Part shown: positions 190-55,916 of the stretch, one piece after another
Position numbering within the stretch: position 1 is the stretch's first letter
How the letters are laid out: each line of letters opens with the position of its first letter
Assembly (NCBI GenBank): GCA_012862575.1
Contig: BLSF01000014.1
Location: 372,001-436,000 of the forward strand
Length of the DNA stretch: 64,000 nt
Direction: 5' to 3'
Origin: Parietichytrium sp. I65-24A
Lineage: Eukaryota; Sar; Bigyra; Thraustochytrida; Thraustochytriidae
Made by a program: the position numbers and the translations under genes
Notes under the pieces: generated by a model
What the model saw: only the letters and a program-made list of their open reading frames with translations
Database searches by the model: none
Told to the model about the DNA's origin: nothing

Positions 190-2991
190 ATGGGCGCGGC
201 TGCCAGTGCCGCATCGGAAGCCCCATCGGAGAAGCTTGCCAAGTCTCTGGGTGGACTAGCCAAGTTTGGTCAAAAGTCCGGGTCATGGAAGAAAGTGCAG
301 CATAGTAAACGCCACGAAAGCGATGCGAATTGTGCCAAGCAGGAGAGCCGGGAGGAGGCTGTCGAGGATGAAGGTAAAGCTCAGCCCGAGTTGGAGAGTG
401 TAGACGCCACAAATCAGGCTAGTGAAGAGCTCGAACAAGAGGAAATCACTGCTGTTCAAGAGGAGGCGGGGCCAGAGGAGGATGAGGAAGCGAAGGACGA
501 GGAGCTTGTGTCCAGGGTGGAAGACTTCGTGGAGGCATTTGACAATGATGACCACCATCTACACCGTGAGAAGAACTCTCCAAGAGCTAAAACGCTCTCG
601 ATTTGCACCAGCGCGCCAGCGCTAATGAGCGCGAAGCAGCTCCTTGCCTCGCTTGATGCAATTGGCGACAGGAAAAGTGTTACGTTGAAGACTCCACAGG
701 AGGAAGACGAAGATATGTTTGCTAATGCTTTGTCACCCAAAGAAGAAGCGAAAGACGGCCTGGCGTCACCAGCCCCCCCGCCAATGTCGCCAACTCTGAA
801 CGGCTTCTACTCCCCCGCATCACCAGACGATATTCATGGTCCCATGCTCAAAGGACAATCGTTGGTCGCCGTGGGCGGCACCAAGCTTGGGGATGCTGGT
901 TATTATTCTACGAGTGAAAGCGCGCCAAAATGGCAATTTTGGACGTTTGATTTCCTAAATGGGTGGTCCTTAATTGCCGATTGCCTGTCACCCTCAAGAT
1001 GTGCTCCGGTGGAGTCAGACATTGATCTTGACGCAAAATTCGAGGAGTGTTTTGGTTCTGCCACAGCGAAATGCGACACCTCAAATTCAGACAAGCTGTT
1101 CAGTCTGATTCCAAAATACGGCGATGGAGACTCGGAGGTAGACAAGATGGTGGAGGAACTCATAGAGAAACCTGGTTTTGAAATTGAAGAGCGGGACGAT
1201 GAAGGCAACTCGTATTTGATCCGCGCAGCTGAGTTTCAAAAGGCCGGTTTGTGCAGGATTCTCTTGCAGAAGGGTGTCTCGACGAGCACCAAAAACGACT
1301 ATGGTTTTGCGGCCTTACACTACGCGTGCTATTCGTCCTCTGCATCGTTTACGATCACCAAGCTGCTCCTCGAATTTGGCGCGTTTCCTGACCTCCCGGA
1401 TTGCAGTGGATGCACAGCACTGCATTATGCTGCAGCGGAGGGTCGGTCTCGGCTCGTCGCGATTCTACTTCACCACAAAGCGAGAATTGACCTCTTTGAT
1501 TGCAACGGCTGCACAGCGCTGCACTATGCAAACGAGCAAGGTTGTTCCACCTGCACCTCGCTGCTGAGATCTTCGGCACAAAGTACACAGGAATGGAAAG
1601 AATGCCTGGATCCATCGACAAACTATGTCTACTATTACAATCTCATCACTGGAGCGACACAATGGGAAAAACCCAAGGACTTCTCCAACGAGAAGTCTTC
1701 GGCACAAAAAGGCGGGCATTCAATTTTGAGTAAGGCACAACTTCAAAGCGAGCTTTTGCGCATCATCAACGATGAATCATCAACAGAGGAAGACCGCGAT
1801 ACTGTGCGTGGCGACTTGATGTCAACTATACCGCATGGTCCAGTGGACGTAATGGAGCTTGCAGAGGCACTTTTCGAGCCATCTGTGATCGAGACAGATG
1901 GTGGTTTGCCAAGTGCCGATGGAGATGCCGGTCCCCAAACTCTGTTTGAGGAAGAGGACGACATGTCTCGCTTGATGAATGAGCTGATTCGAGAAAACGA
2001 GGCCCTCAAGAAAAAAGTGGAGCGAGGTAAGAAGCATAAAAAGCGCACCACCTCGAAGCGCGAGGTTAAAATCTCGTGCGTCTTTGATGAGACACTGGAG
2101 GACGTGAATGTCGACCCAGAAAAGAGCACGATTGAGCTCACGAAATGGCGCGGTAAAGGTTCGAAGGTGTTTCGCTTCGCAGACCGCATTAGCTTTGAAG
2201 GCGAGACTGTCAAGTCCATGGAATACTTGTGCACCATCGCAGAGAAAAGGGAAAATGCGTTATTGATCATTGCGGATGCAAACGCTTCCGAAAAATCAAA
2301 TCGTGCTGTCCAACTATGTGAGATAGTTGCGCGCGCAGCGATCAAGGGTGAACTAGGTTGCAAGATTGAGCTAAGCATGCTTGAGGTGGGATCCTCTGGC
2401 GTGTTTGATGTGCTATCGTCTTTATCCAAGCTAGATGTGGTCTGGGATGCAGGGCAGAAAAGGTGCAGAGAGCATCGCAAGATAGAGTACATCGTAGACG
2501 CCGAGGGTGTTGCAAGAACTTTGGAGAAGGGGTACGAGCAAAGGGAGCTGTTTTCTGTGCACAATAGTGCAGAAGACCCCGGGACACTTTCTCATTTAGT
2601 TTGCACCTTGAAGGTCTACTCAAAGAACTCAAAATTTGCGGAGGCGGCCAAGTGTGTAACAATTGTCGACCTTGGCTTTTCCGCGGAACCAGGCGATGAG
2701 CTGCAGCACGCCAAATCCACGAACCATCTGGCGTATGTGGAGAGATCGTTGTCCAGCTTGCAAAATTTGCTCAAACTCACTATTCGCAAAAGAGTGGGGC
2801 TGAACACACAGGTCCAGGAGCTGATTGAAAGTGATTCACTTTGTACACTTGTGGCTGAAACAGCTCTCAACGATCCTTCGTTGGGACTTTGGATGAATTT
2901 CTCTGGAGCCGACCTTAGGGATCGGTCGGCCCGTGCGCTGGAGAGGCTGACGCACTTTGCTGAGAAAATAAAGCCGAATCATCAAAGGTAG
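190..2991 (+). CDS. Ankyrin-WW protein with C-terminal degenerate kinesin-like motor
   Basis: Intronless, 933 aa, starting at ATG 190. The N-terminus begins MGAAAS, which fits the N-myristoylation pattern (Gly2, Ser6). Residues about 40-300 are acidic and low-complexity. Ankyrin repeats lie at about 328-465 (two copies of CTALHYA), and a WW domain at about 469-497 (W..YYYN...T.WEKP). After a short charged helix (about 605-625), residues about 627-925 follow the kinesin motor order: KISCVF strand, FRFADRISFEG, a switch-I-like stretch (about 788-805), IVDLGFSAEPG in place of VDLAGSE (about 824), and ERSLSSLQNLL in place of NKSLSALGNVI. The P-loop position reads ADANASEKSN (about 693-703), not GQTGSGKT, so ATP binding is unlikely. 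A motor after a coiled coil resembles kinesin-14. A membrane-tethered, motor-dead microtubule binder is inference. Ankyrin and WW calls are firm; the kinesin call is moderate. Confidence 0.75.
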   Translation: MGAAASAASEAPSEKLAKSLGGLAKFGQKSGSWKKVQHSKRHESDANCAKQESREEAVEDEGKAQPELESVDATNQASEELEQEEITAVQEEAGPEEDEEAKDEELVSRVEDFVEAFDNDDHHLHREKNSPRAKTLSICTSAPALMSAKQLLASLDAIGDRKSVTLKTPQEEDEDMFANALSPKEEAKDGLASPAPPPMSPTLNGFYSPASPDDIHGPMLKGQSLVAVGGTKLGDAGYYSTSESAPKWQFWTFDFLNGWSLIADCLSPSRCAPVESDIDLDAKFEECFGSATAKCDTSNSDKLFSLIPKYGDGDSEVDKMVEELIEKPGFEIEERDDEGNSYLIRAAEFQKAGLCRILLQKGVSTSTKNDYGFAALHYACYSSSASFTITKLLLEFGAFPDLPDCSGCTALHYAAAEGRSRLVAILLHHKARIDLFDCNGCTALHYANEQGCSTCTSLLRSSAQSTQEWKECLDPSTNYVYYYNLITGATQWEKPKDFSNEKSSAQKGGHSILSKAQLQSELLRIINDESSTEEDRDTVRGDLMSTIPHGPVDVMELAEALFEPSVIETDGGLPSADGDAGPQTLFEEEDDMSRLMNELIRENEALKKKVERGKKHKKRTTSKREVKISCVFDETLEDVNVDPEKSTIELTKWRGKGSKVFRFADRISFEGETVKSMEYLCTIAEKRENALLIIADANASEKSNRAVQLCEIVARAAIKGELGCKIELSMLEVGSSGVFDVLSSLSKLDVVWDAGQKRCREHRKIEYIVDAEGVARTLEKGYEQRELFSVHNSAEDPGTLSHLVCTLKVYSKNSKFAEAAKCVTIVDLGFSAEPGDELQHAKSTNHLAYVERSLSSLQNLLKLTIRKRVGLNTQVQELIESDSLCTLVAETALNDPSLGLWMNFSGADLRDRSARALERLTHFAEKIKPNHQR

Positions 2992-3141
2992 GCATTTTCT
3001 TGGATTCTCTTGATCAGTATATTTAGTTGCAAAGAAAAGTAAAATACAGGCCCTTGCCTTTTTCCTTCGTGTGGCCTTTCGAACGGGCAAATCTGACTCG
3101 ATGAAGTGACATTTTAAAAAGACTAAGACACTCTGAGGCAC

Positions 3142-4932
3142 CTACTCTTCGTCGCTACTACTGCCACTTTCGGCATGTTCACTCGATTGGGCGATACGGC
3201 GAGACGTGCGCGGAGGCTTGTAATCCACCACATTCAGCTGCTTGCCATTCTCTAGAGACTTTTCGACCTCTGCTATGCGATTTTCGGTTTGGGTGACGTC
3301 CAGAGTATCGTGCAACACACTTAATGCGGGATACACCGCCGCAAACCGACGACGTTCCTCGTTTTCAAGCCCTTCAGGCAAGCCTGCAGATACAAAGGGA
3401 TCATCATACTCTGGGGCCCCTGTCTGTCTCTTCGTCCTCTGTCCTGCCGAGCGAACCATTCTGGCTGCCTCCTCAATCCATAATGCATCCTCCAAAGACT
3501 GGCGAGAAGGGTGTGCGGGCGGCTCCTTCGGTATTGGAGCTAAGGAGGTCCTCCTTAGAATCTCCTCCTCTAGCTCATCCTTGGTAGGATACGAGAAGAG
3601 AGGACGCTTTGATGCATGCCACCAAGAAGATTTGTGAGCGCTCGACTTGGTGGCAAAAGTCCCAGAAAAGTACATTCGCGGAGCCTTACGGTGGCTATAA
3701 ATGCCCCATTCTGTCACCTTGCTGGAAAGTTCTAAAGCCCGCAAATCATCCCGGTCCATCTTTTTCTCTTCCGCACCATCAGCAGATGATACCTTGGGCT
3801 CATCATTCGGGGCGGTTGTCTCTAGCTTCTTGCTCTCTGCGGCGACTTTGTTTGTAGCAGCTACGGCCGTGCTAACAGAATTGGCTAGCGCAAGATTTCG
3901 TTCATGAAGGCGTTGCGAACGAGTCGCTCCGAAGATAACATCCGGTTCGTTCTCTAAAAAATCGTTCCAGCGGCTTGAAATGTGTCCATTTTGTAGAACA
4001 AGTCGAAACATTCTCGCTGGCATACCTTCCATAAAGCTCGACCCCTGCGGGGGTTCCAAAGGAAGTAGGCCAACCCTAGTGCGACAGGAGTCGTCCCAGC
4101 GAATGAAGTTATCTTTGAACAAGCCCAAACTTTTTTGCTCAAGTTGATTTGCCTCATAATCCAGGTACCGACTTCCGGCAGTATCGCGTTCTTCTATGTC
4201 GCTTCGCAACTTGACCATACCCAATGTTTTGCCGAGCTGAGGGGAAGCGCCGTCGGCTTGCGAGACAGAATTTGTCCTTCGCTTCCCAGTGGTTGCGCCA
4301 GCGCCAGACGATGCCTCAGGGATCTGTTGCGAAGCTGCCTTTGAGCCTTTCTGGGTCGCTGCTTGGTCATCTAATGCGTCAACATCTTCCAGCTCCGTAT
4401 CTATTTCTTTCTTTGAAAGCTGATGCACTTGCTTCAAATGCCGAATAAGTTTCTCGCGAGCCTGGAAGACGCGCTTACATGGCAACACCGGGCAAGCGAT
4501 TCCCCCGCTCGCCTTAGATGCCGTCGACACTCCAGCGACAGAGCGCATCGTCTCATTCTCTAATTCTTCCAGCCTCGCCTTGTGTTCTTGCATCGTCCAG
4601 CCGCCCTTGGCGCACGCGCGCGCTGTAGCTCCCCAACGAAACTGACTAGACACACTATCCCGTAAAATAGACCACCCACAGTTGTCGCATGGCCGAGTTT
4701 TCAACTTCTTATTCGCTGCGCTTGCGGCGGAGGTACCCGCTGGATTCGACGCGCCGCCCGTCGTGCTGTTGCTTGCTGTCCGGCCCAGGTCTCGGCGACG
4801 CCCACGCTTTGCTGCACCTCCGACCCTCCGCCGCCGCTGCTGATGCTGAGAGCCGTCATCGTCCTCTCCGTCCTCTGATTCGTCTCCGCGACGTCTTTTG
4901 GAAGAGCTTTCCTCCGAGCTCTCGCGACCCAT
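3142..4932 (-). CDS. Nuclear C2H2 zinc-finger protein, unknown function
   Basis: Intronless, 596 aa, ATG at 4932, convergent with the gene before it (150 bp between stop codons). The first 80 residues are very basic and Ser/Glu-rich with Arg clusters typical of nuclear localisation signals. A CxxC pair at residues 82-85 (CDNCGW) followed by a Cys near 107 may be a small zinc ribbon. A single C2H2 finger sits at 147-170 (CPVLPCKR...RHLKQVH). The rest is acidic and low-complexity with conserved-looking patches (WGIYSHRKAPRMYFSG near 415, and LEDALWIEEAARMVRSAG near 495). It ends in an acidic tail SGSSSDEE. No named family was recognised. A nuclear DNA- or RNA-binding role is inferred from the finger and basic N-terminus. 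Confidence 0.75.
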   Translation of the reverse strand: MGRESSEESSSKRRRGDESEDGEDDDGSQHQQRRRRVGGAAKRGRRRDLGRTASNSTTGGASNPAGTSAASAANKKLKTRPCDNCGWSILRDSVSSQFRWGATARACAKGGWTMQEHKARLEELENETMRSVAGVSTASKASGGIACPVLPCKRVFQAREKLIRHLKQVHQLSKKEIDTELEDVDALDDQAATQKGSKAASQQIPEASSGAGATTGKRRTNSVSQADGASPQLGKTLGMVKLRSDIEERDTAGSRYLDYEANQLEQKSLGLFKDNFIRWDDSCRTRVGLLPLEPPQGSSFMEGMPARMFRLVLQNGHISSRWNDFLENEPDVIFGATRSQRLHERNLALANSVSTAVAATNKVAAESKKLETTAPNDEPKVSSADGAEEKKMDRDDLRALELSSKVTEWGIYSHRKAPRMYFSGTFATKSSAHKSSWWHASKRPLFSYPTKDELEEEILRRTSLAPIPKEPPAHPSRQSLEDALWIEEAARMVRSAGQRTKRQTGAPEYDDPFVSAGLPEGLENEERRRFAAVYPALSVLHDTLDVTQTENRIAEVEKSLENGKQLNVVDYKPPRTSRRIAQSSEHAESGSSSDEE

Positions 4933-6590: not shown

Positions 6591-6618
6591 ACCAGGAACC
6601 GGAGCATCGTTGGCGAGT

Positions 6619-9600
6619 ATGGCGGAGAACCGGGAGCCGCTGGCGGAGCTGGGCGCGGCAACCCAGGAGGATCTGCTGACGGCGACGCTGGGGCGATGCG
6701 GCGTGCGAGCTGTGGGAGACGCGTACGTGTGCGCGAACAGTAATAGAGCGCTGGTAGCGATGGAGCGCGAGCTGGAGCGTTCGGGCAAGGGAAAGGAGCT
6801 GGTGAGAGCGCTGGAGAAGAGGGTGGCAAGCGGGGATGCGAGGGCTCTGAGGGCGATGCTGAAGCCGTTTAGGAAAGTGGCAGACGAGGGCGGAACTGAG
6901 GACGGCGCAATTCAGGTGGTGGGCGTGCAGAAACATAGCCTTATGCGACTGCTTCTGCACGTGCGTGCAATTCAGACACAGGTCATCGGCCTACTTTGCG
7001 ACTCGTTTATAACGTACAGCACATCAGAGGACGAGAACCAAGGGTTGAGCGAGGACGTGGCGAGGATGCTGCTCTATCAATTTCGCTTCTTGAACTTTGT
7101 GGAGGATGGAAACGCGCTTGCTACGCACCTTACCGAAACGCTCGAGACGATTTGCTCGATGGGCCTGCCCACAAACAGGCTTCCTCAGGAGATCATCAAC
7201 ATGTTTCCAGAAATCCTTGAGGACTCGCAGCACTCGATGGTGGTGGACAAGCTTCAGCAGCTTCTGGCAGAGGAAAGGGAGCTGACCGTGCCCATAATTG
7301 AAAGTCTTGGAAACTTGCGCGTGCCAAACTCGAGTCTCGCAAACATCAGGCAGACTGTTCTCGGGGTTCTTGGCTCGGCACCATTCACCGATCTCCCTGT
7401 CGCGATTCGGTTTCTCCTCGAGTCTCTGGGAAATGGCAACGATGCACTATCAAAGCAGACGAGGGCCAAAGTCATTGGAGAGTTGCGGAATCGTTTTGCT
7501 GAAATTTCCCGAAACGACATATCGCTAAACGCTGTGGAGCCTACTGCTTGCACAGAGATCAGCGAATCACAGCGCGCGTACGAAGTACGCACCACTTGTG
7601 TGCAAGCCATTCTGAAGACATTGTCATCGTGCTTGGTGATCCGAAATGACCTCGCGCAAGCGTACCTAGAAAGCATCGATGTTTCCACGGAAGTGTCCGT
7701 GATCGACTTTTGGGTGCTGGTCACGCTCACCGGAAGTTCCTCCCATTCAAAGCAGGCGCTGGGGAAGATCAAGAATCTCGTCTCCAAGAATGAAGAAAAC
7801 ATGTGCGAGCTCATTGACGCATCCATCATTGGCCACCAAGCAGTGCTTGAGTTCATGTTTAAGAACTTTTTGGATCTTGCCTCAGCCCTCATGGAAGGAG
7901 TTGGTATGTCCATCGCGGCCAAAGCGAATGGCTCACAGATTCAGCAACGCGAAGTAGCAAGTTTTCTTTATAGGATACTTTTCCAAGAGTTCAATCAACC
8001 GTTTCATCGCCAAGAGGTCATTGTGGCGCTTGTGATGCACTGTGGCAACAGCGGGGCGCCTTCTGGCGAAGTCGATGCTGCGCTGCTGGCACTTGACCAA
8101 CTCGCGAGTGAAGAAGGGAATATAGCTGCCATGGAGCCTTTCATTGAGTTTTTGAAGACGCTTATGCACAACTGCCATCAACTTCAACCTAGTCAAACGC
8201 GCCTGGTATTCAGCTTACTGAGCAAGTTTGCCATCGAACAAACCTTCCGCGATGAGGCCGCAAGTGCTTGGTTCCACATTATGCTTAAAAAACTGCTCAC
8301 GCACGCGAACGAGTCATCTCGTTGTGCCGGAGCGATCGGTGCAGCTCAGTTCCTCAAGTCGTGGTGTGTCATGAAAGAGGCTGGGCGATCTTTGTCGCAG
8401 AACGATGGCAGGGCGGGAATGGAGCTTGATATGGAGTTTGACGAAGACCGTATCTGGAAGGACGTATTTGACCTTGCTTTCGGAACGTGCCGAAACTCGT
8501 CCGTCGCAATGGCGACGGTTTGTGAGGAATTAGCAAGCGAAATTGGTGAGAAAGTTTTCGCCAAGACTTTCTTTGAAAACAAGTCTGAAAGATACAAGAA
8601 GGACGTGGAGCGAGTGGCAACTTATTGCGCCAATGAAATCGTGAACGAATTTTTGACACGCTTTGCAGACACCCTCGCAGAGCCAAAGATGGGGAAACAA
8701 TCCTCGTCCTCCTCATCGTCTTCATCGCTCTCTTCTGCTCCTGCCTCGCTGGGGGGAATGTCTACACAGCCCGCGGGGCTCAGTAAAGGCAAGGTCCCGT
8801 GTTTTAACGACATGATGTTTGCTACCTATCAGTTCAACTTGGACGGGGACGATGCCCCTCTTGCAATTCGACTCTTTCCAAATCTTGCACAGGCTAACGT
8901 GGACCCAAGGCAACAAGAGCGCCATACGTATCTGTGCTCGATTCTTCGCTGCGCGACCATATTTACAAACGCGATCGGGCAGGAATTTGATGCGGTCCTT
9001 GGCTGCCCACTTCTTCTCCCCGACGAAGCATCCATATCTACCGCGTTTGAGGATTCGCCGGAGGCAGCAGAGGAGTCCAACGACAACACAGACGAGGTCA
9101 AACTTGCGATGCGTTCGGCTGTATTTCTCAGCATTTTCCACGCGGTGAACTGGATACGCGAGGTCATCAGCAGCTTTGCGCACCGCATTGAGGTTGAAGG
9201 GTATCGTGCAAAACTGCTGGCTCGCTTCGATCACCTTGAATATCTGGAGTCCGCATTGGAGAAGCTTGTCATGAACAAGCACAGCCGAAAACTCCTTTTT
9301 CTGCTCCCCAGCTTTCAGAGCCAGAGTGTATTATGTGGAGACCTGGGATCTGCAAAAGTGAAGAAGTCCTCTAGTCGGCCCACTGATACAGGCGCAACAG
9401 TGAAGGACACTTTGGAGCTGCTTCGGAGTAACTACCGCCCATTTCGCGTAGGGGTGCTTGAGATACTCAGATGTGGGCGATCGCTTACGGAGCATCAGTG
9501 CGCCCTGCGGATGTCTCTGTTGACAATGCGCGACTGCTTGCGGCTGACTCTAAACCCGCCCAAAAACATTGGAACGAAGAAACGTGCCGCCAAGACCGTG

Positions 9601-11208
9601 CCAGAAATCCAAGTACCAAGTGAAGAACTCAAAATGGACGAGTTGATTTCCTTGGTGTGCTCGAAGATGGAGAATCTAAGAGAAATTTGTGAGGTTTTGT
9701 ACGATGGGTATGTGAGGCGTGTAGATGAACTTGGAGCCGATGACGTGGACGACAGCGAAGATGGTGAGCACGTGCAAGACTGCTTGCACACCAGCGTGAA
9801 TATCTTTCGTGAGATGATACGCTCGAGCGCGGTGCGTTCAAAGCGAAATTTGAAGAAGGTTGTGTTGGATTGTGCCGAGCAATTTTGTGCAAAGAGACTT
9901 GTTCAAGAGAACTGTTTACGTAGCCAGACGCAGTCGGATGGGATCTCGGATGAGGTGCTGGCTATTGAAAGACTGAGCGAGGTTTTCCGAGAGTGGTCGG
10001 ATCGGTGCAGCGGGTCTGATTTAGCTCTCAAAATGACGGTAGTGGAGACATTTGTGGACATGAAGAGGTTCCTTGGCAAGAAATCCATCGAGGTGGACCT
10101 CGATCAGAAAATTTCCTTTCGCTGCAACCAAATTCTTTCCGATTCATGCAATGTGACAAAACTGAGCAAAGCACTCGTTGGAAATCTGGTGGAGCTCCAT
10201 ATAAGTCTTCACAAGGAGCCCATTCAAAGGTGTGCTGATGTTGCCGTCGACTTGGAAAACGTCGCATCAGGATTAGGAGACCAGGGTGAGATTTTTGGAA
10301 CGCTGAGCAAGACCAATCTCGTGCACTTTTATGAGCCCCTCTTCAAATGTCTGTCCGCTAAGCTTGAAGCCATTAAGTTTGCTGTGTGTATGCCTGGGAA
10401 GGGGGCGAAGAGAAAGCGCAGCAAGCTGCAATCGAAAAAGGCTGCCAAACAAAAGTCAGCCAAGAAGCAGAAATCGACGGGCAAAGGAAAGGCAAAACGA
10501 AAAACCGTCGGCGACTCTGACGAAGACGTGAACGAGAGTGAGCAGGACGACGAGTCTGGAAACGAGGACGGGGACGAAGCTGGAGATGGACTAGTCCACG
10601 AGGGCGAAAACAGCGACGACGAAATCGGCGACAAGGATGAAGATGCTGAAGAGCAGGCTAAAGCTAACGGCGACTCCATCGATTTGTTTGAAGACGAGGG
10701 CGAGAGCGAGAGTGCCGAAGGACAGGCATTGACTCCGGAGGTCATTTTCGACATGACTCTAGAAGTTATCCTTGGCGTTAAGCAGCTCATCTCAATTACC
10801 CGCGTGTGTGGAGAGAAGAAGCCTGTGCTTCATACTGCTGCGAAGCAAGGTTGTGCATTCCTCGAAAAGGCCATGAAGACAGCTGTGCCGTTCTTCGAAA
10901 TGTACTTTCAAAAAAAGCCAGGGCACGTTCGGAAGGCGCTGAAAGCTATCCAGGGAAGTACTCGGCAGCTTCAGAGCATCTGCGAGTTTGGCAAGAAGAA
11001 TGGCGACTCAATTTTGCTTAGTGCTGTGCCCAAGCTTCGAAGAATCATGGAGAACCTCACTTATGGTGCGAAGCGGATGTGTGTTGCGAATAATTGCACC
11101 GATCTCTTCAGTACAGGAAAGCTCAAGCGAAGAAATGTTGATGGAACTGAGATTCTGGATGACGAAGAAGAAAATGAGGAAGACCAGGAGGAAGGAGGTG
11201 ATGAATGA
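6619..11208 (+). CDS. FANCD2: Fanconi anemia group D2 protein homologue
   Basis: Intronless, 1529 aa. The open frame begins at a TTG at 6610, but the first ATG is 6619 (MAENREPLAEL). FANCD2 pairs with FANCI as the DNA clamp that is monoubiquitinated in interstrand-crosslink repair. Diagnostic blocks are PEILEDSQH followed by LTVPIIESLGNLR (about residues 200-240), NWIREVISSFAHRIE (about 850), and the C-terminal run VKQLISITRVCGEKKPVLH ... GKLKRRNVDGTEI. This matches the vertebrate order (FDSHPVLH ... GNLKNRDLQGEEI). The length is close to the human protein. A Lys-rich then acidic linker (about 1260-1365) and an acidic tail are present. By eye, the human Lys561 position aligns with Ser566 (HANESSRCAGAIGA against STVFKYKLIGIIGA). 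Family assignment is firm; loss of the lysine needs a proper alignment. Confidence 0.96.
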   Translation: MAENREPLAELGAATQEDLLTATLGRCGVRAVGDAYVCANSNRALVAMERELERSGKGKELVRALEKRVASGDARALRAMLKPFRKVADEGGTEDGAIQVVGVQKHSLMRLLLHVRAIQTQVIGLLCDSFITYSTSEDENQGLSEDVARMLLYQFRFLNFVEDGNALATHLTETLETICSMGLPTNRLPQEIINMFPEILEDSQHSMVVDKLQQLLAEERELTVPIIESLGNLRVPNSSLANIRQTVLGVLGSAPFTDLPVAIRFLLESLGNGNDALSKQTRAKVIGELRNRFAEISRNDISLNAVEPTACTEISESQRAYEVRTTCVQAILKTLSSCLVIRNDLAQAYLESIDVSTEVSVIDFWVLVTLTGSSSHSKQALGKIKNLVSKNEENMCELIDASIIGHQAVLEFMFKNFLDLASALMEGVGMSIAAKANGSQIQQREVASFLYRILFQEFNQPFHRQEVIVALVMHCGNSGAPSGEVDAALLALDQLASEEGNIAAMEPFIEFLKTLMHNCHQLQPSQTRLVFSLLSKFAIEQTFRDEAASAWFHIMLKKLLTHANESSRCAGAIGAAQFLKSWCVMKEAGRSLSQNDGRAGMELDMEFDEDRIWKDVFDLAFGTCRNSSVAMATVCEELASEIGEKVFAKTFFENKSERYKKDVERVATYCANEIVNEFLTRFADTLAEPKMGKQSSSSSSSSSLSSAPASLGGMSTQPAGLSKGKVPCFNDMMFATYQFNLDGDDAPLAIRLFPNLAQANVDPRQQERHTYLCSILRCATIFTNAIGQEFDAVLGCPLLLPDEASISTAFEDSPEAAEESNDNTDEVKLAMRSAVFLSIFHAVNWIREVISSFAHRIEVEGYRAKLLARFDHLEYLESALEKLVMNKHSRKLLFLLPSFQSQSVLCGDLGSAKVKKSSSRPTDTGATVKDTLELLRSNYRPFRVGVLEILRCGRSLTEHQCALRMSLLTMRDCLRLTLNPPKNIGTKKRAAKTVPEIQVPSEELKMDELISLVCSKMENLREICEVLYDGYVRRVDELGADDVDDSEDGEHVQDCLHTSVNIFREMIRSSAVRSKRNLKKVVLDCAEQFCAKRLVQENCLRSQTQSDGISDEVLAIERLSEVFREWSDRCSGSDLALKMTVVETFVDMKRFLGKKSIEVDLDQKISFRCNQILSDSCNVTKLSKALVGNLVELHISLHKEPIQRCADVAVDLENVASGLGDQGEIFGTLSKTNLVHFYEPLFKCLSAKLEAIKFAVCMPGKGAKRKRSKLQSKKAAKQKSAKKQKSTGKGKAKRKTVGDSDEDVNESEQDDESGNEDGDEAGDGLVHEGENSDDEIGDKDEDAEEQAKANGDSIDLFEDEGESESAEGQALTPEVIFDMTLEVILGVKQLISITRVCGEKKPVLHTAAKQGCAFLEKAMKTAVPFFEMYFQKKPGHVRKALKAIQGSTRQLQSICEFGKKNGDSILLSAVPKLRRIMENLTYGAKRMCVANNCTDLFSTGKLKRRNVDGTEILDDEEENEEDQEEGGDE

Positions 11209-32688: not shown

Positions 32689-33975
32689 AGCGTTTCAAAC
32701 ATGGCGCGGTTTGCGAGCTTTGCACCTTTCGCAGTAGGCAGAAAAGTCAGTGGTGAGATCTTGCTCTCGCTCGGCCGCATTGTCTTCTAGAGCGGGCCCA
32801 CATGCCTCGCCCACACTTTACGCTATGTCGCCCCCGAAGCGGCGCGGAATGAATATGTATCTTTCTTCTTGGCTCCAATTGCTCAACAAAATTGTCTCTC
32901 CTCGTTGCGGCGAGGTTTTGCTTCCATTCAGTGTTCGATTCTTTTCTAGTCCTTTTTTTTTCATTTGATTCCTCATGCGCTTTTCTTGGCTTCCATTCAC
33001 TTCCAGTATGTTTATAGTTCTCCGTCTTTTTTGCCTTGGTAACAAAATAGTGGCAAAAACGGGAACGAGAATCCTATGAGTTAAAGATTTTTGGGGACCG
33101 AGACGTTTGAAACCAGCGGAGACGGTTGACGAGAATGCGATTGTAGATGTTACACAAGAGGGCGAATTCTGTGCACGGCTAAGGCAGCCAGAATCTGTGC
33201 TCCTTGAAAGACACATTCCGGATTACATATGCTAAAGTCTCTCTTCATGCTACGATCCATTGCGCGCAAATCGCGAGGAAGGGCCACTTCTGATTGTTCA
33301 AAACGCAAACATATCCACACGATGGCAATACTTGCGATGGCAATACTTGCTGTCTCCAAGTGCCCAAAGATGCATTGTGGTTAGTCTTCTTGGGGTTAGA
33401 ACTCTCTTAGTTCAGTGAACAAAGAAGGGTTCGTAACGGACATCAGCAGCCTTTTTTGGCATTTTTGGCTGTTATAACAATGCGAAATAAATTATGAAAA
33501 TGAGAGCAAGAGGAAGGAAACGAACTCAGAGTTAGAGTCAGGAGAAACAAAACTCACTTCGCAAGAGACCAAGAGATCAAGAGATAAATCATTGACGGTT
33601 TGTTTATTTCTTGAAATGGCAATATACATGTATTACGGTTTACGACTTGGCTGCCTTCCTTGCTCTTTGAGACTTGACCTTCCACCAACCACACCATAGC
33701 CCTTTTAATGCTCGACAAAATTCACGCACATACGAAAGCTCTACGCGGAAGCCTGAGCCCTCTCTGTGCGCGACAAAGAGACGGTAAGCTGCCGTTCCTC
33801 AGGCTGGCACAGGCACAGATTGCGAAAGTCAGAGCTCAGGATTGACAGACAATTGGGCACTTGGATTGTGAACTCCGAGCAACCGAGACGCCAGCAGACT
33901 GGTCGCTGATGTGGAACGGGCAAGCAGAGGGAAGCTCGCGGAGGTCGATTATTGGTAACTAAAGGACCGTGCGAA
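32689..33975. other. Intergenic region before CCDC180-like gene
   Basis: About 1.3 kb with no supported gene or RNA. It holds only a small direct repeat (GATGGCAATACTTGC twice near 33320-33352). Confidence 0.5.
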
Positions 33976-36900
33976 ATGGCTTCGCTGTTGCAGCCGGAGG
34001 TTGACGATGGCGCGGAAGATGAGATGGACGACGGACTGGACATGCTCGCAAGCGACGCTTATGACCATCTTGGAGGCGGAAACCTTGACGGCGAGGAGGA
34101 CGAGGACGAGGACGAGTATGAAATGAACAAGCGAGCGAGCAAGTTTCAGGCGGAGCTCAAGATCCTCGAGTCGCTGGACCAGCCGCGAGTTTCGTATAAA
34201 AAGAGCAAGTTTGGGGTGCAGAATGCAGGAAACGATAAACCATGGCTCACGGCCAAAGAGCGTGAGCGGGAAGAGATCCTTCGGCCAAAGTACCTGGAGA
34301 TGTCCAAGAAAGACCTTGAGTCATTCCGCCAGGAGATTCCACGAGAAGAGTTGGAGAAGATGCAAAACGCCCAGCTCGCAAAAGCGGCTGTTCGAACACT
34401 CCCAAGACAAGTGGTGGCGGCTGAAAATCCGACAAATCATGCCAGACTCAAAGCAACGACTGCTTCCCGCCAAGTGAGACATGATGATGCAGTCAAGGGG
34501 TTCCAAAAAAGTTTGGTCTCGATTAGTGAGGAGCTGGAGCTGGAGGTGATTGAGTGCGGCAGGGCGCTTCGGGACTCGCTGGAGTCCTACGACGAGAGTA
34601 TTTCTCGGGCTATTCTTGCGCTTCAAGACGAGCAAGTGCTGAGGGGCGAAGAGTACAGTTTTGTCGCAGACAGCTGGGACGAGCTCGACAAGCTGTGCTC
34701 CTCGAGAAAAGCTGCTATACAAGGTTTCGACGAGAATATGCAAAACATCGAAAAATCCCGATCACAGAGAGTTTCAGAAAGGCTCGGCGAGCTTGTGGAC
34801 ACCCTGACACATATTGGATACAAACTTCGCGGTGAGATTGAGCGAATGGTGGAGCGGGAAGCACACGAAGTCAATCTCGTTTTAATATCTAATCTGCGCA
34901 TCAAGAGCGATCTAGTGGCGAAGATGCACACAAAGCATGTGCACATTTTTCACGATACAAGAGCAAAGTGGGAGAAGGTGGAAACTAGGTGGCGCCACCT
35001 GCGACACGAGCGAGCTCTGGAAGAGTGGCAGCAGCTATTGAATTCCGAGGTATTCACAAACCCTCCACAGCGAACAGCCTTAATCAAGCAAATGGACGCC
35101 GAGCAGCAATCTCGCCACGAAGACCGGCGTCTCGACCTCCTCAAAAATCTTGCAAAGCTTGCCTCTCAGGAAAATATACAAAGTTGTTGGGAGCAGGCCA
35201 TTTCCACGGCGCCAGGCGAAGAGCCTGAGAACTTCGAAGATGGCAAAATTCCTACGAGCCTACCCATGTTGGTCGAAGATCGCATTCGTGCAATCAGGGA
35301 GCTTTTAATAGCACTTGACGAGGAGGAAGTAGAGCACTGCAGAACGATCTCAAAACAACTGGAGCAGCATCAAGCCCATGTCGAGAAGGAGATGCAGCTG
35401 AAAAGGGAGCAGCTTCGTGCAGAACTTCATCGATACGCAGCTCTGGCGCACGATGGTGACCTCTTTACGTTTGGGAAAAGAGGAGAAGCGGCGATGTTTC
35501 GAATCCGTCTTGACGAAATGATTTCTGATAGCAATTTGGAAGGTTTCTTTCGAAAAGCGGCGGGTCTAAAGAGCGAACTTACCAAAGTTGTGCAGGTTTT
35601 GGCAAAGCCGGAGCTGATTCATAACCACACTGTACAAAATCTTCTGGCCCGAGTGAGATTACTTGTCGATTCAAGCAAGATCGCGGAGATAAAAGAGCGA
35701 GAAGGCAAGGCTTCCCTTGTAAAGAATCTGGAGAGCATGCTGGAAAAAATTAGAACTGCTCGTCACGCGGAACTTGCGCCTCTTGTACCAAAGTTCTATA
35801 ATCTCGTGCGGACCTATAATGAACCTTCAATTGGGCCAATGGCCCAAGCCGAGCTACGAGTCGCCCTGGACATCCTCGAAACCGTTCAGCCTGAACTCGC
35901 GAAAGAGGAGGACTCGGATGTGGTTCAGACTGAAGGCGAAGAAGACCAGGCAGCAATGACTACTGAGGAGAAAAATGACGTAGATGACGAAGAAGAGAGC
36001 GTCGGGAACGCACCAGGCGGAACAGACTCCGCTGAGCTTGCATACCGAGAAAAGCCGCTGAATGCCGTTGATGTCATGAATGCACAAAAAATCGTTGGTA
36101 TTGTGGTTCACTCATCCAATTTGCCAGAGGATATTCTCGCTTCCTTGACGCAGATCACTGAGGCGCTTCAGCAGCAAATTCGCGCAAACGAAACTGTTGA
36201 CCTTGTCGTCGCAGACAATTGCGAACATCTCATCCAACAAAGAGCCGAGGAGCTTAAAGTGGAGCGCGCTGCGGTTGACGTACGTAATACTGAGCAGCAA
36301 ACTAGACTTCGGGATGGTTGTAATAGCTTTTGCCAATTCTACTTAGTTCTTGCGCAGATACTCAAAGCCTGCCGGGAAAGGGAAGAACAAACGGATCTGG
36401 ATTCGGAAGATCAGCTGGAGAAACTGGCCGAGAACTTTAGTCTAACAGACAAATCTCGGAAAGAGGCATTTGGACAGACCGCGCATGCTCTAAGGCATGC
36501 TCCGGGCAAACATGCTCTGGAGCAATTCTTTCGCCAAGCGCTGCACATTCTCTCGGAGATCGAGTCGAATTATCGTGATTATCATCGTGACGCAGTTTCT
36601 ATTTCCAAACAACACCCGATACAGGCTTTGCAAGAAGCGATTGAATTTCACGACAAACTTTCTCTGCATCTAGGCCTGGAGCAAGTCAAAGAAGAGGGCG
36701 CAGCCACATCCCCCGCAGCAATAACTGCTAATGAGGAGACGCAAGAAGAAGAGCAGATTCCTTTGCAGGGCGGTGTCGAAGGCGAGCAGAAGTCTGAGCC
36801 AGATGTAGCTGAAGGGGAGCGCGAACAGATGTCCAATCGCGGGAGCAGTACTGAAACAGATGGTCTTGAACAGAACTCTGAAGAGCATCCAAGTCTAACA

Positions 36901-39537
36901 TCGTCGCGATCCGCTCAAGTTTTGCCGCAGAACGCGACAATCTCCTTTTTTGGACTAATGACGTTTAGAGAAATCAAGTCCTGTGACGATCTAGCTGCCG
37001 AACTGCTGCAGCCAAGAGCAGCCACATCACAAGAAGAGGACAGCGAAGAAGAAGAAGAAGAAGGAGAAGACGAAGAAGAGGAAGAAGAAGGAGAAGACGA
37101 AGAAGAGGAAGAAGAAGTCAGTGAAGACATTACAGAAGGAATGGCCTCGGCCGACGGCGATGAAGAAAACGTCAAGGCGGAAACCGAGGCCGAAGAGAAC
37201 AAGGAAGAAAGCGATGGTGATGGTAATGTTGATGAGGGCAGCATTCAGGAGGACGCTTTATCAAAGAGCTCCAAAACAAGCTTTCGATCAAGCTGCCTGT
37301 CATATGTGACCCCCATCCAAATCGATGCAAAAGAGTGCTCGGAGACATTGGAGCAGCTTCGGCGCGCGGTTCTCTTGACCACCTGTGAGTCTCGCCGACT
37401 ACGGCAAATCGAGCTTGAAACATATTGCAAAGAGCGGTGTGAGGAATTTACTGAGGAGCTGGAGGAGAGATTGAGGCTACATTGGCCACTGAAGGGACGT
37501 ACAGATGTCAAGTATCAGCAGCCGCGCGCCGGAGAGCTTTTACAACACCAGCAAAAGCACGATCGCCATGTCCGGGCTGTGAACCTTAAAAGTAAGGCTC
37601 AAGAAGAGCAGTTCTTGAAGAAGATGGACAAAGCCAAGGAGACCTTGAAGAAATTTCGTCACCACATGAACAGTCTGACCCTTCATCTGGAGGCACAAAA
37701 CACCGTAGCCGCTCTGCAAGGAGTTCTCCGCAAAGGGGTAGATGCAGTCACAACGTTCCGTGTCGGTATGCAGGAGCAAAAAGAGCTACTTTTACCGTTT
37801 GTGCGACGAACCAATGAGCTTCTGGATATGAACAATCAGTTTTTGGCTGTTTGCACTCCCTTTGAAGAGGGCGGCGACTACAACACGGAGGAGATTCAAA
37901 TTGAACAAAAGTCCTTGCATGTGCTGGAAGAAAATCTCATTCAGGAATTCGCTGAAAGGGCGCAACAATTACAGATTCTTTTCGTTGAGGCGAAGGAGCT
38001 TCGCCTTAGCCTCGAGAGCAAATTCACTGCCGATTATGAAAGATGTTTGCAGGCTTTGTCTGTGCGAGAAGGCGTTGGGAAGAAATACGGTGCACCTCGT
38101 CGGGAGGCACAGGAGAAGCTCAGTTCAGAAATCACCTTTTCTGACAATGCTGAACGCTACGTAGCGGGTAAACTGGACTATCTGCGAGGCTTGCTTGACG
38201 GCAATGCTCCAAGAGCAGGAAGTGAGCCGCTGTCGGCTGAGATCACGGATTGCATAGACACAATTCGAAAGTGCCTCTTCTTCCGCGCAAAATATCTGGA
38301 ATGTTTGCAGGAAAATGTGGAGCTCTCTGCGCCGGCTCTTATCGAGCTCCAAGACGACCCTAGAGATAGCCCGCGGTATGGCCAATCGCTTGAAGATGTT
38401 TTGACCAAGTTGGGTTTGAGCAGGGTGGATGACGGCATAGAGAACATCCAAACTTTCTGGGAGAAATTTAAAAGGGCTGATGAGGAATGCAAAGTCCAAA
38501 CGAGGGAGTTGTACGAGAGAGAAGGAATGATGCACGAGTTGAAGGAGACTGGGAAACGACTCACGCCCGACGGGGAGTTGCTGCCCGAGTCTTTGGTCAA
38601 GTTTTTGTGCGAGTTCGAGGTTCGCGCCAGAGGTTTTCGCGATGAATCTTGCAAGCGTTTGCGTGACCAGATTGATGCCTTTCTGGAAACTTGCGCAGAT
38701 GCACCCAAAGTGGTGTTGGGTGACATTCTCAACCGTTGTAAGAAGGAGTATCTCCACGAGGAGGAGTCTGTGTACACGGAATTTGATGCCCTTCTTCGAG
38801 AATCTGCTCAAGTCAAATCGAGGATCGAGAAGGAAATGCGCCCTGCTCTTGGAGATAAAAATCATGTTGCCGAGTTGCAGGCTATCTGCAAATTGGAAGA
38901 GAACCGCTCACTGAACGTTGGGAAACGAATCGTTCTTGCGCATTCAGATGTATTAAGCCATGCAGAGAAAATCGCGAAAACTTTCGTCGCGAGGTTCAGT
39001 CATGGTGCCAACGCACTCGTTTCTATGTTGAACGACTGTATTTTCCCATCGGATCTGTGCGCCTTGCCCGGGGATGAGCTGGTGGTGACGAAAAGAATGG
39101 GTCTCAAGCGTTTGAGAAAAGCAAGAGATCGTTCCCAAGCGGTGGCTCAAAGCCAGGCCTCCACCGACCAGAAGCGTGGATCCTATGAGAAGGAGTGGCC
39201 GGGCGTGGATTTCACCGTTTTGCAAGAGACCATGAAGACCATGGCGGCCGTAAGGTTGGAGCCACCAGCTGATGAAGAGGACAGCACCGAGCAGCCTAAC
39301 GGAAAGTCTCTCTCAACAGACGAGATTTTTTCAATTGATCAGTCGCAGACAACTTCCTCCACCCCTCAACACAAGGCAGTGTTTCAGCACCGGTTTGATT
39401 TATTTGCAGAATTTGCGTCTTGGCACAAAGGTGTTGTTGATAGCAGTACTGCTAAATTTAGCAAGCACATCGAAGAAGAAAAGGCGTGGAAGCGCTTTTG
39501 GGATCAGACCATACGAACGCTCGTATCCCTAAAGTAA
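33976..39537 (+). CDS. CCDC180-like coiled-coil ciliary protein
   Basis: Intronless, 1853 aa. The frame opens at a TTG at 33952; the first ATG is 33976 (MASLLQPEV). The protein is very long, helical and coiled-coil-rich. Residues about 165-400 follow the DUF4455 pattern of human CCDC180: HDDAVKGFQKSLVSISEELE, then a long helix, a conserved Trp region and NPPQRTALIKQM. The final 300 residues follow DUF4456, with FEVRARGFRDES (about 1545), KSRIEKEMRPALGDKNHVAEL (about 1615) and SHAEKIAKTFVARFSHGANAL. A Glu/Asp run lies at about 1020-1055. CCDC180 is linked to motile cilia in animals and is found mainly in flagellated organisms. Its molecular role is poorly known. It is convergent with the CBP20 gene. 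Confidence 0.82.
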   Translation: MASLLQPEVDDGAEDEMDDGLDMLASDAYDHLGGGNLDGEEDEDEDEYEMNKRASKFQAELKILESLDQPRVSYKKSKFGVQNAGNDKPWLTAKEREREEILRPKYLEMSKKDLESFRQEIPREELEKMQNAQLAKAAVRTLPRQVVAAENPTNHARLKATTASRQVRHDDAVKGFQKSLVSISEELELEVIECGRALRDSLESYDESISRAILALQDEQVLRGEEYSFVADSWDELDKLCSSRKAAIQGFDENMQNIEKSRSQRVSERLGELVDTLTHIGYKLRGEIERMVEREAHEVNLVLISNLRIKSDLVAKMHTKHVHIFHDTRAKWEKVETRWRHLRHERALEEWQQLLNSEVFTNPPQRTALIKQMDAEQQSRHEDRRLDLLKNLAKLASQENIQSCWEQAISTAPGEEPENFEDGKIPTSLPMLVEDRIRAIRELLIALDEEEVEHCRTISKQLEQHQAHVEKEMQLKREQLRAELHRYAALAHDGDLFTFGKRGEAAMFRIRLDEMISDSNLEGFFRKAAGLKSELTKVVQVLAKPELIHNHTVQNLLARVRLLVDSSKIAEIKEREGKASLVKNLESMLEKIRTARHAELAPLVPKFYNLVRTYNEPSIGPMAQAELRVALDILETVQPELAKEEDSDVVQTEGEEDQAAMTTEEKNDVDDEEESVGNAPGGTDSAELAYREKPLNAVDVMNAQKIVGIVVHSSNLPEDILASLTQITEALQQQIRANETVDLVVADNCEHLIQQRAEELKVERAAVDVRNTEQQTRLRDGCNSFCQFYLVLAQILKACREREEQTDLDSEDQLEKLAENFSLTDKSRKEAFGQTAHALRHAPGKHALEQFFRQALHILSEIESNYRDYHRDAVSISKQHPIQALQEAIEFHDKLSLHLGLEQVKEEGAATSPAAITANEETQEEEQIPLQGGVEGEQKSEPDVAEGEREQMSNRGSSTETDGLEQNSEEHPSLTSSRSAQVLPQNATISFFGLMTFREIKSCDDLAAELLQPRAATSQEEDSEEEEEEGEDEEEEEEGEDEEEEEEVSEDITEGMASADGDEENVKAETEAEENKEESDGDGNVDEGSIQEDALSKSSKTSFRSSCLSYVTPIQIDAKECSETLEQLRRAVLLTTCESRRLRQIELETYCKERCEEFTEELEERLRLHWPLKGRTDVKYQQPRAGELLQHQQKHDRHVRAVNLKSKAQEEQFLKKMDKAKETLKKFRHHMNSLTLHLEAQNTVAALQGVLRKGVDAVTTFRVGMQEQKELLLPFVRRTNELLDMNNQFLAVCTPFEEGGDYNTEEIQIEQKSLHVLEENLIQEFAERAQQLQILFVEAKELRLSLESKFTADYERCLQALSVREGVGKKYGAPRREAQEKLSSEITFSDNAERYVAGKLDYLRGLLDGNAPRAGSEPLSAEITDCIDTIRKCLFFRAKYLECLQENVELSAPALIELQDDPRDSPRYGQSLEDVLTKLGLSRVDDGIENIQTFWEKFKRADEECKVQTRELYEREGMMHELKETGKRLTPDGELLPESLVKFLCEFEVRARGFRDESCKRLRDQIDAFLETCADAPKVVLGDILNRCKKEYLHEEESVYTEFDALLRESAQVKSRIEKEMRPALGDKNHVAELQAICKLEENRSLNVGKRIVLAHSDVLSHAEKIAKTFVARFSHGANALVSMLNDCIFPSDLCALPGDELVVTKRMGLKRLRKARDRSQAVAQSQASTDQKRGSYEKEWPGVDFTVLQETMKTMAAVRLEPPADEEDSTEQPNGKSLSTDEIFSIDQSQTTSSTPQHKAVFQHRFDLFAEFASWHKGVVDSSTAKFSKHIEEEKAWKRFWDQTIRTLVSLK

Positions 39538-53623: not shown

Positions 53624-55846
53624 TTAATTGGACTTTTGCTTGGAAGAGGTGGTCTTGGAGGGCCTGCTGCGGAGGACCAGGTAGAGGAGAAAGGAAACCG
53701 TGCACGCGACAATGAGGCCAGCAACAAGCTCATCTGGGACGCCATACTTGTACTCGTGCGCGAGCACCTGACGAGGGGCTACCTGGTCGGTCACCGAGAA
53801 CGGCTCAGTGACTGCCTCGTAGAGATCTGCTTTGCCATACTTGCTGACGGACTTTGCTCCGCGAAAGTGAATGCGGTATTCTCCGTCTTGGGTCTTGAGC
53901 TTGAATCGCAATGGGTCGTCCTCCGGGATAACCCACTCGCACGTGCAAAGGCCAAAAAACAAGTATTTGTTCGAGAATCGGAAGCGAACAGACCAGTCGT
54001 GGTCCGTGAGGACAGTGTCCCAGAACGTGCCACCTCCATCACTCTGTTCAATGTCACAGAAGGAACCAACGGCAATCTGAGAGTTGAGTGGGCGAGAGCA
54101 CCAGAAGCTGGCGGAGACCACCTGATTACGATCCCACTTGGAGCCCTTTTCAACATTTTTCTGAATGTCTCCAAGCTTGCGCCCGGGAAGCATGAAAGGC
54201 CTCTCGTCCACAAGCTGGTCGGCGACGGCGTTAAAGACGTTTCTCGGCTCTTCAACAGTCGGCTTGAGGCGAGGGATGTCCTCGTTCTTGGCAATTCGTG
54301 TAAACATATCTTGGACGGCAAGGAGTTGGTTGGGGCCAAAGTGGGTGCAAGCACCTTCGTAATGCTGAACCTGATACTCCTCCTTGGTGACAAGATACCC
54401 TGCGTATCCGTTGCTGACAGCTGCAACGGCGGTGTGCAAGGGTTCTTTTCCGGCCGCTTTGAGAGCGTTGGTGACGGTGTCAGCGATTCTCCTTCCAGCC
54501 ATGGTGGTCACTTCGAAAGGCAGAGCTGCGAACGCGAAGCTGCCGATCGCGAAAATCTGCATTGGCAGAATCTGTGGCGTGGAGGCAGGGGTGGTCATCC
54601 CGGTAGCGAAGAGAGGAACCTTCGGATAGTGGCACTCCTCGACGTGTTTTGGGATCGTCGCGGGAACAAGCACGGATTTCCCGATAAATTCCAGGAGCCA
54701 GTTGCTCTTGACGCGAAGATGGCCCTCCTCCATACCTTTAACGCCTCTTCCGTCCTCGGTTCCAGCAAGCATGTGCAAGCCAGACAACGCCGGGCAAGTA
54801 GACGTTCCATCGCTGAGTTGGTAGTTTGAAAAGTCAAAGTATGATTTCTTCGCAAAGATTTCGCCGCTGATAGACTTCCACTTGTCATTGCTCCCGTCCA
54901 CAAGGTAGCCGGCCGTGTAGGCTTGGCATTCCCCAATGTCTTCCGCGTTGCCAATGTAGTCCTCACCGTGCCTGCCGGTGAAAGTGCCATCCTCGAGGTC
55001 CACTACATTTGGGCTGATATCCCCGGACTCGGTCTGGAAGAAAGCTGCGACAAAGTCCTTCTTGTCGTGCATATTGGCGTACTTGGTTTCGAGGAGCCAC
55101 TCCGCGTATCCTTTGTTGTCAGAGCTGACAAGAGAGTTGGCGCCGACCAAACTTGTGGTGTGCACTGCGAAGAAGGTCCACATTGCGTGAACGTCTCTTT
55201 CATCTTGAGGATCCGTGAACTTGACAACGGTCATGCGGGTGTTCTTGTCGTGTTCGTACTTTGCACGCTCCTCTGCGGGATTCTGCATGTATGCCTCTGG
55301 TGACCTGTTCGCACTGCAATCAGGAATGAGAGTGTGTGCCACATAGAGGCGACGAGGATGAAGATTCTTCATTGCAATGCGAACTCCGTCGATGATGGAG
55401 TCAATTACCATGGAGTAGTGGATGGGGGTGAAGCCCAGCACGGCGAGATTGTAGAGGTAGTGCTTGTGTAGTCCGCCAGGGCCAGAATGCGTGTGCTGAG
55501 CGTGGAGAAGGGTGTTGTCACGGTTGAACAGTCCCTTAAACTCCCTCTCTGCAAGCCTTGTCAGCAGAGCCTCGTGAAGTTCCAGAGGGATGCTGTGGAT
55601 GTCGCAATGGATGGTCAAGGAGGACTTGTGATTGTGCTCAATGACAAAGATGCGTGCATAGAGGCGGTTCAGGAGCCCAGTTGCGCGCTGCATCGGGTCA
55701 GCGTATCCCATCATGTTGACCTGCGCAACAGGCCCAGTGATGTCCACCTTTTGCACGCCAACGCGGTACAGGCTGTCATCCTGCTCTTGCGCCGCTGCGC
55801 CGTGCGCGCAGGCGAAGAAGCCCAGCACCGCAGTGAAAACCTTCAT
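53624..55846 (-). CDS. Neutral ceramidase, C-terminally membrane-anchored
   Basis: Intronless, 740 aa. The frame opens at a TTG; the ATG at 55846 begins a clear signal peptide (MKVFTAVLGFFACAHGAAAQ). Neutral ceramidases cleave ceramide to sphingosine and fatty acid. Family blocks are present: NMMGYADPMQRATGLLNRLYAR, the zinc-site HAQHTHSGPGG, the nucleophile block SGDISPNV with Ser near residue 272, and the C-terminal Ig-like part (TFWDTVLTDHDWSVRFRF). Most family members are soluble or hold an N-terminal anchor. Here a C-terminal helix (LVAGLIVACTVSFLLYLVL, about 705-724) is followed by a short tail ending KQKSN, which fits the KxKxx ER/Golgi retrieval signal. A GTATC array lies upstream. 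Confidence 0.95.
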   Translation of the reverse strand: MKVFTAVLGFFACAHGAAAQEQDDSLYRVGVQKVDITGPVAQVNMMGYADPMQRATGLLNRLYARIFVIEHNHKSSLTIHCDIHSIPLELHEALLTRLAEREFKGLFNRDNTLLHAQHTHSGPGGLHKHYLYNLAVLGFTPIHYSMVIDSIIDGVRIAMKNLHPRRLYVAHTLIPDCSANRSPEAYMQNPAEERAKYEHDKNTRMTVVKFTDPQDERDVHAMWTFFAVHTTSLVGANSLVSSDNKGYAEWLLETKYANMHDKKDFVAAFFQTESGDISPNVVDLEDGTFTGRHGEDYIGNAEDIGECQAYTAGYLVDGSNDKWKSISGEIFAKKSYFDFSNYQLSDGTSTCPALSGLHMLAGTEDGRGVKGMEEGHLRVKSNWLLEFIGKSVLVPATIPKHVEECHYPKVPLFATGMTTPASTPQILPMQIFAIGSFAFAALPFEVTTMAGRRIADTVTNALKAAGKEPLHTAVAAVSNGYAGYLVTKEEYQVQHYEGACTHFGPNQLLAVQDMFTRIAKNEDIPRLKPTVEEPRNVFNAVADQLVDERPFMLPGRKLGDIQKNVEKGSKWDRNQVVSASFWCSRPLNSQIAVGSFCDIEQSDGGGTFWDTVLTDHDWSVRFRFSNKYLFFGLCTCEWVIPEDDPLRFKLKTQDGEYRIHFRGAKSVSKYGKADLYEAVTEPFSVTDQVAPRQVLAHEYKYGVPDELVAGLIVACTVSFLLYLVLRSRPSKTTSSKQKSN

Positions 55847-55916
55847 TTCCCTGTTTGCTCTTCCTCCCTCTTCGAAGGCGCGCTCGGGCTTGCGATTGAC
55901 AAACACCCTCAACCTC

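Follow-up and report, generated by a model that had tools for sequence, protein, structure and literature searches.

The window analysed here is a 64,000-nucleotide stretch of the thraustochytrid Parietichytrium sp. I65-24A (GCA_012862575.1, contig BLSF01000014.1, positions 372,001 to 436,000; contig C14 of the 42.5 Mb genome). Near its start lies a forward-strand open reading frame (ORF) of 933 codons without internal stops, predicted to encode a protein with ankyrin repeats, a WW domain and a C-terminal domain that resembles a kinesin motor with a degenerate nucleotide site. An earlier reading of the sequence alone, hereafter the original prediction, had described it as a non-motile, microtubule-binding kinesin relative, perhaps tethered to a membrane. 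Its features are listed below by position in the window, with residue numbers of the protein and with the source of each assignment in brackets.

190 to 2991, forward strand: the whole ORF, 933 amino acids (aa), with ankyrin, WW and degenerate kinesin motor (ORF, Pfam, codon score)
190 to 210, forward strand: N-terminal MGAAASA, which fits the N-myristoylation pattern (pattern search)
1195 to 1572, forward strand: ankyrin repeats, approximately residues 336-461 (Pfam Ank_2, 8.9e-22; best stretch 388-461)
1591 to 1674, forward strand: WW domain, residues 468-495 (Pfam WW, 3.6e-11)
1936 to 2037, forward strand: coiled-coil-like stretch ahead of the motor-like domain, residues 583-616 (crude heptad scan)
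2170 to 2202, forward strand: FRFADRISFEG, residues 661-671, possibly the kinesin F.FD.vF element (alignment with six kinesin pieces)
2272 to 2301, forward strand: ADANASEKSN, residues 695-704, possibly the P-loop place, GQTGSGKT to DANASEKS (alignment with six kinesin pieces)
2347 to 2775, forward strand: kinesin-like core from switch I to helix alpha-4, residues 720-862 (hhalign, E 1.6e-5, probability 79%)
2554 to 2598, forward strand: degenerate switch I, SAEDPGTLSH for N..SSRSH (alignments)
2662 to 2694, forward strand: degenerate switch II, DLGFSAE for DLAGSER, within IVDLGFSAEPG, residues 825-835 (alignments)
2740 to 2772, forward strand: ERSLSSLQNLL, residues 851-861, at helix alpha-4, NKSLsaLgdVi (alignments, BLASTP)

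The four strings quoted in the original prediction (FRFADRISFEG, ADANASEKSN, IVDLGFSAEPG and ERSLSSLQNLL) are all present at these positions, and the ankyrin and WW domains that it named were both recovered by Pfam. By codon score the annotated frame ranks first in all six stretches scored, and the last 314 codons would be stop-free by chance with a probability of about 4e-8 from base composition alone. The N-terminus matches what we take to be the N-myristoylation pattern. The pattern occurs at residue 2 in all four proteins of the ankyrin-WW-motor build, namely the window protein and the three relatives described below, and in one of the 33 other ORFs of at least 300 aa (window plus 14 loci). 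Of the earlier suggestion that MGAAAS tethers the protein to a membrane, the myristoylation-type N-terminus stands, but the attachment itself stays conjectural.

Kinesin likeness in the C-terminal part is detected only by profiles built from kinesins of the same genome, not by the curated Pfam profile. Pfam reports no kinesin (PF00225) in the window protein at an expectation value (E) up to 10, and its sole match within the C-terminal 314 residues is a sub-threshold one to fibrillarin (E 0.18). Searching the PDB with phmmer returned a folate enzyme (E 0.82) and the kinesin Klp10A (E 1.2), whose match keeps the motor elements in order between switch I and alpha-4. The Pfam kinesin model matched 72 stretches of the window's own genome, with loci for the best 30, and these 30 together with the C90 protein formed a 31-kinesin profile. 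Residues 627-933 score 24.9 bits with it, compared with 5.5 for the top of 1535 reported shuffles (2000 made) and 2.0 for the reversed sequence. Among 614 stop-to-stop ORFs of at least 100 aa, taken from the window and the fetched loci of the same genome, the window ORF reaches 22.9 bits (E 1.3e-6); the next non-kinesin has 3.0, and the 12 rows that outscore it are all ORFs of kinesin loci, some of them overlapping. The middle third (residues 715-866) reaches 27.8 bits, which none of 3000 shuffles equals. Because the score lies above chance, carried by residues 715-866 only, this profile comparison establishes that the C-terminal part descends from a kinesin, as originally proposed.

Within this region, both switches are degenerate, and here too the earlier description holds. 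In active kinesins, Arg in switch I and Gly and Glu in switch II pair and sense phosphate; the window protein has lost all three. The P-loop signature GxxxxGK[ST] is absent from the motor-like domain. Replacement of the P-loop by ADANASEKSN, the placement first suggested, recurs in the alignment with six other kinesin pieces, where NALLIIADANASEKSN stands opposite KVCLFSYGQTGSGKTH. Two alignments with the eleven kinesin-14s place VFRFADRISFEG there, with FRFADRISFEG (in a region not significant alone) at the P-loop instead, and a four-protein alignment leaves a gap. Because the P-loop third of the domain is not significant on its own, the choice of residues for the P-loop is a positional assignment, and the alignments disagree on it. 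On these alignments, the motor-like domain is without nucleotide-site residues, at the sequence level for both switches and by position only for the P-loop.

The same genome encodes at least three intact ankyrin-WW-kinesin-14 proteins, P0002 (936 aa), P0003 (1737 aa) and P0004 (976 aa), which match Pfam Kinesin with 352, 334 and 330 bits. Like the window protein, they begin with MG and carry ankyrin repeats, WW domain and C-terminal motor in the same order; the WW of P0004 falls under the Pfam cut-off (21.2 vs 26.9 bits). Unlike it, they have an intact P-loop, switch I and switch II as well as the Pfam kinesin match. BLASTP joins the window protein to all three over the ankyrin-WW part (E 5e-19, 1.5e-16 and 1e-12, each covering residues 336-488), and its motor part to P0003 over residues 765-908 (E 6e-4). 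Ankyrin-WW identity between the window protein and the paralogues is 28-32%, and 28-34% among the paralogues themselves; motor identity is 20-24% and 45-53%, respectively. Since the ankyrin-WW part matches the level between paralogues and the motor lies far lower, the decay, read plainly, would be confined to the motor. A local sequence error, the other explanation that the original prediction had allowed for, does not fit, because each intact relative is a gene of its own and the window protein is altered in several motifs. Given its ankyrin repeats, WW domain, C-terminal motor-like domain and MG start, descent of the window protein from the ankyrin-WW-kinesin-14 build is well supported. At the sequence level, we consider it very probable that the gene arose as a paralogue of these kinesin-14s and then decayed, losing the switch motifs and, probably, the P-loop.

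Several observations weigh against this reading. The P-loop third (residues 619-724) scores 0.3 bits, equalled by 494 of 3000 shuffles, and the last 75 residues (859-933) score -0.5 bits, equalled by 671 of 3000. If ADANASEKSN is the P-loop, its Lys and Ser are kept and both glycines are gone. Conserved kinesin-14 columns are retained at 23 of 80 positions, and the motor-like domain is C-terminal, as in kinesin-14, but reads KREVKISCVF at the neck motif L.G.IRV. Loop 12 no longer carries the microtubule-contact motif PYRN..LT. BLASTP of the motor part is weak for P0004 (residues 740-861, E 0.066), gives no collinear motor match to P0002, and finds nothing in the unrelated kinesin-14 L062. The top other ankyrin match in the genome is a C113 protein without a kinesin motor (residues 334-473, E 9.7e-13), ahead of the paralogues on C33 (4.3e-12), C6 (1.1e-11) and C90 (3.4e-8); because C113 matches better, the 28-32% identity is partly general to ankyrin repeats. 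As to the kinesin class, the profiles show no preference for kinesin-14: one of 20 non-kinesin-14 kinesins scores 21.6 bits, compared with 19.5 for kinesin-14 and 21.6 for ankyrin-WW. In pairwise comparison L022, not called a kinesin-14, ties in Z (8.1) and has the top raw score (90 vs 78). Finally, the coiled coil of the window protein comes only from the heptad scan, a crude and weak method that also marks stretches within motor domains; in the paralogues it marks two mid-protein stretches each in P0002 and P0004, and many in P0003.

A motor fold, for which the original prediction had proposed a structure prediction as a check, appears weakly when kinesin rows are supplied but not without them. 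AlphaFold without an alignment gives the motor-like part a mean predicted local distance difference test (pLDDT) of 33 and a predicted template modelling score (pTM) of 0.23; none of the 71 PDB matches to this model reaches E 0.001, and no named kinesin is among the best 50 of the 71, a further point against kinesin descent. With six kinesin pieces, mean pLDDT is 46 and pTM 0.48, with no residue at 70 or above. In that case 288 PDB matches reach E 0.001 at a template modelling (TM) score of about 0.4, and the best 50 of them comprise 47 named kinesins and 3 axoneme structures. The strand-helix order of the alignment-guided model reads as kinesin-like, which is weak support because the kinesin rows steer the model.

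Non-catalytic motor heads are already well studied in yeast Kar3 complexes. Kar3 has two non-catalytic partners there, Vik1 and Cik1: Vik1 has a motor-like fold without an ATPase site (PMC3544905), processive movement requires the Cik1 head (PMC4338441), and Vik1 and Cik1 confer distinct roles on Kar3 (PMC10281266). The window protein resembles them, as described there, in having a motor-like domain that is probably without an ATPase site and probably of kinesin-14 descent. The comparison with Vik1/Cik1, already made in the original prediction, gains from the finding that the intact ankyrin-WW-motor proteins belong, like Kar3, to the kinesin-14 family. Vik1 and Cik1 are not known to have an ankyrin-WW front. 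On balance, we lean towards a decayed paralogue whose head is non-catalytic and which serves an active kinesin-14 as a Vik1/Cik1-like partner or tether. By analogy with yeast, this head would pair with one of the intact ankyrin-WW kinesin-14s. The choice of membrane or cargo may fall to the ankyrin and WW arms and to the N-terminus of the window protein, which is probably myristoylated and would tether the complex to the membrane. We infer all three roles: the pairing, the anchoring at a membrane and the contact with microtubules.

Alternatively, the dead motor may bind microtubules by itself and link them to a membrane with no active partner. KIF26 is a kinesin with an inactive motor, and static membrane-microtubule tethering is associated with kinesins of its type. 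The myristoylation-type N-terminus, the ankyrin and WW arms, and a heptad scan in which a long coiled coil is not clear would all suit such a free-standing tether, but the lost PYRN..LT motif speaks against it and undercuts the microtubule binding originally proposed; we regard it as rather unlikely. Equally improbable, in our estimate, is a scaffold in which the motor fold is kept for protein contacts and the microtubule role is gone. Loop 12 has indeed been lost along with the switch motifs, and the ankyrin-WW part is conserved to paralogue level, yet the core from switch I to alpha-4 has stayed kinesin-like. It is very improbable that the motor-like strings arose by chance in a domain unrelated to kinesin: the missing Pfam match, the non-significant P-loop third and C-terminal end, and the empty single-sequence fold would agree with this, but not the margin of 22.9 over 3.0 bits among the 614 ORFs or the architecture shared with three intact kinesin-14s. 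Least probable of all is a decaying pseudogene: divergence of the motor-like domain far beyond the paralogues' motors would fit it, but all 933 codons are open, the last 314 against odds of about 4e-8, with in-frame codon bias in every stretch.

Returning to a decayed paralogue that partners an active kinesin-14, we tentatively raise the possibility of a second independent origin, outside fungi, of a dead-head kinesin-14 heterodimer, here in a membrane-anchored ankyrin-WW family where a single non-catalytic partner would be shared by, or contested among, at least three active motors. If true, an inactive paralogue alongside intact sister proteins of like architecture would offer an independent natural test of the role of a head after loss of ATP hydrolysis, and the same system would test whether ankyrin-WW kinesin-14s act at membranes. 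No such protein was found in the open literature on ankyrin-WW kinesin-14s or inactive kinesin motors, most subscription journals lying outside that search. By word find, ankyrin, WW domain and Vik1 are absent from the main text of a kinesin survey (PMC2867816).

Other kinesin loci were observed in the same genome. L081 (G000:C96:74000-78700, 374-4573) encodes a 1399-aa kinesin-14 with a WW near its N-terminus; it resembles the window protein in combining WW with a C-terminal kinesin-14 motor and ranks third in pairwise Z (as L013), but has an intact P-loop and no ankyrin match listed. L051 (G000:C4:161000-169500, 1374-aa ORF) and L049 (G000:C3:202000-210000, 1130-aa ORF) match the kinesin profile partially, with the P-loop part excluded; several kinesins encoded in this genome may be non-catalytic. 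L050 (G000:C3:740500-748500) is a divergent kinesin that retains GSGKT, with DLAGTEP at switch II. Bacterial assemblies of the prokaryote genome collection contain 22 loci (L059-L080) that encode kinesin-motor relatives, probably through eukaryotic contamination.

Elsewhere in the window, positions 6610-11208 (forward strand) encode FancD2 (Pfam 1.2e-81) and positions 33952-39537 (forward strand) a DUF4455/DUF4456 protein (Pfam). The latter is presumably CCDC180-like, a possible sign that the organism is flagellated. Positions 53624-55912 (reverse strand) encode a neutral ceramidase (Pfam 1.3e-130).
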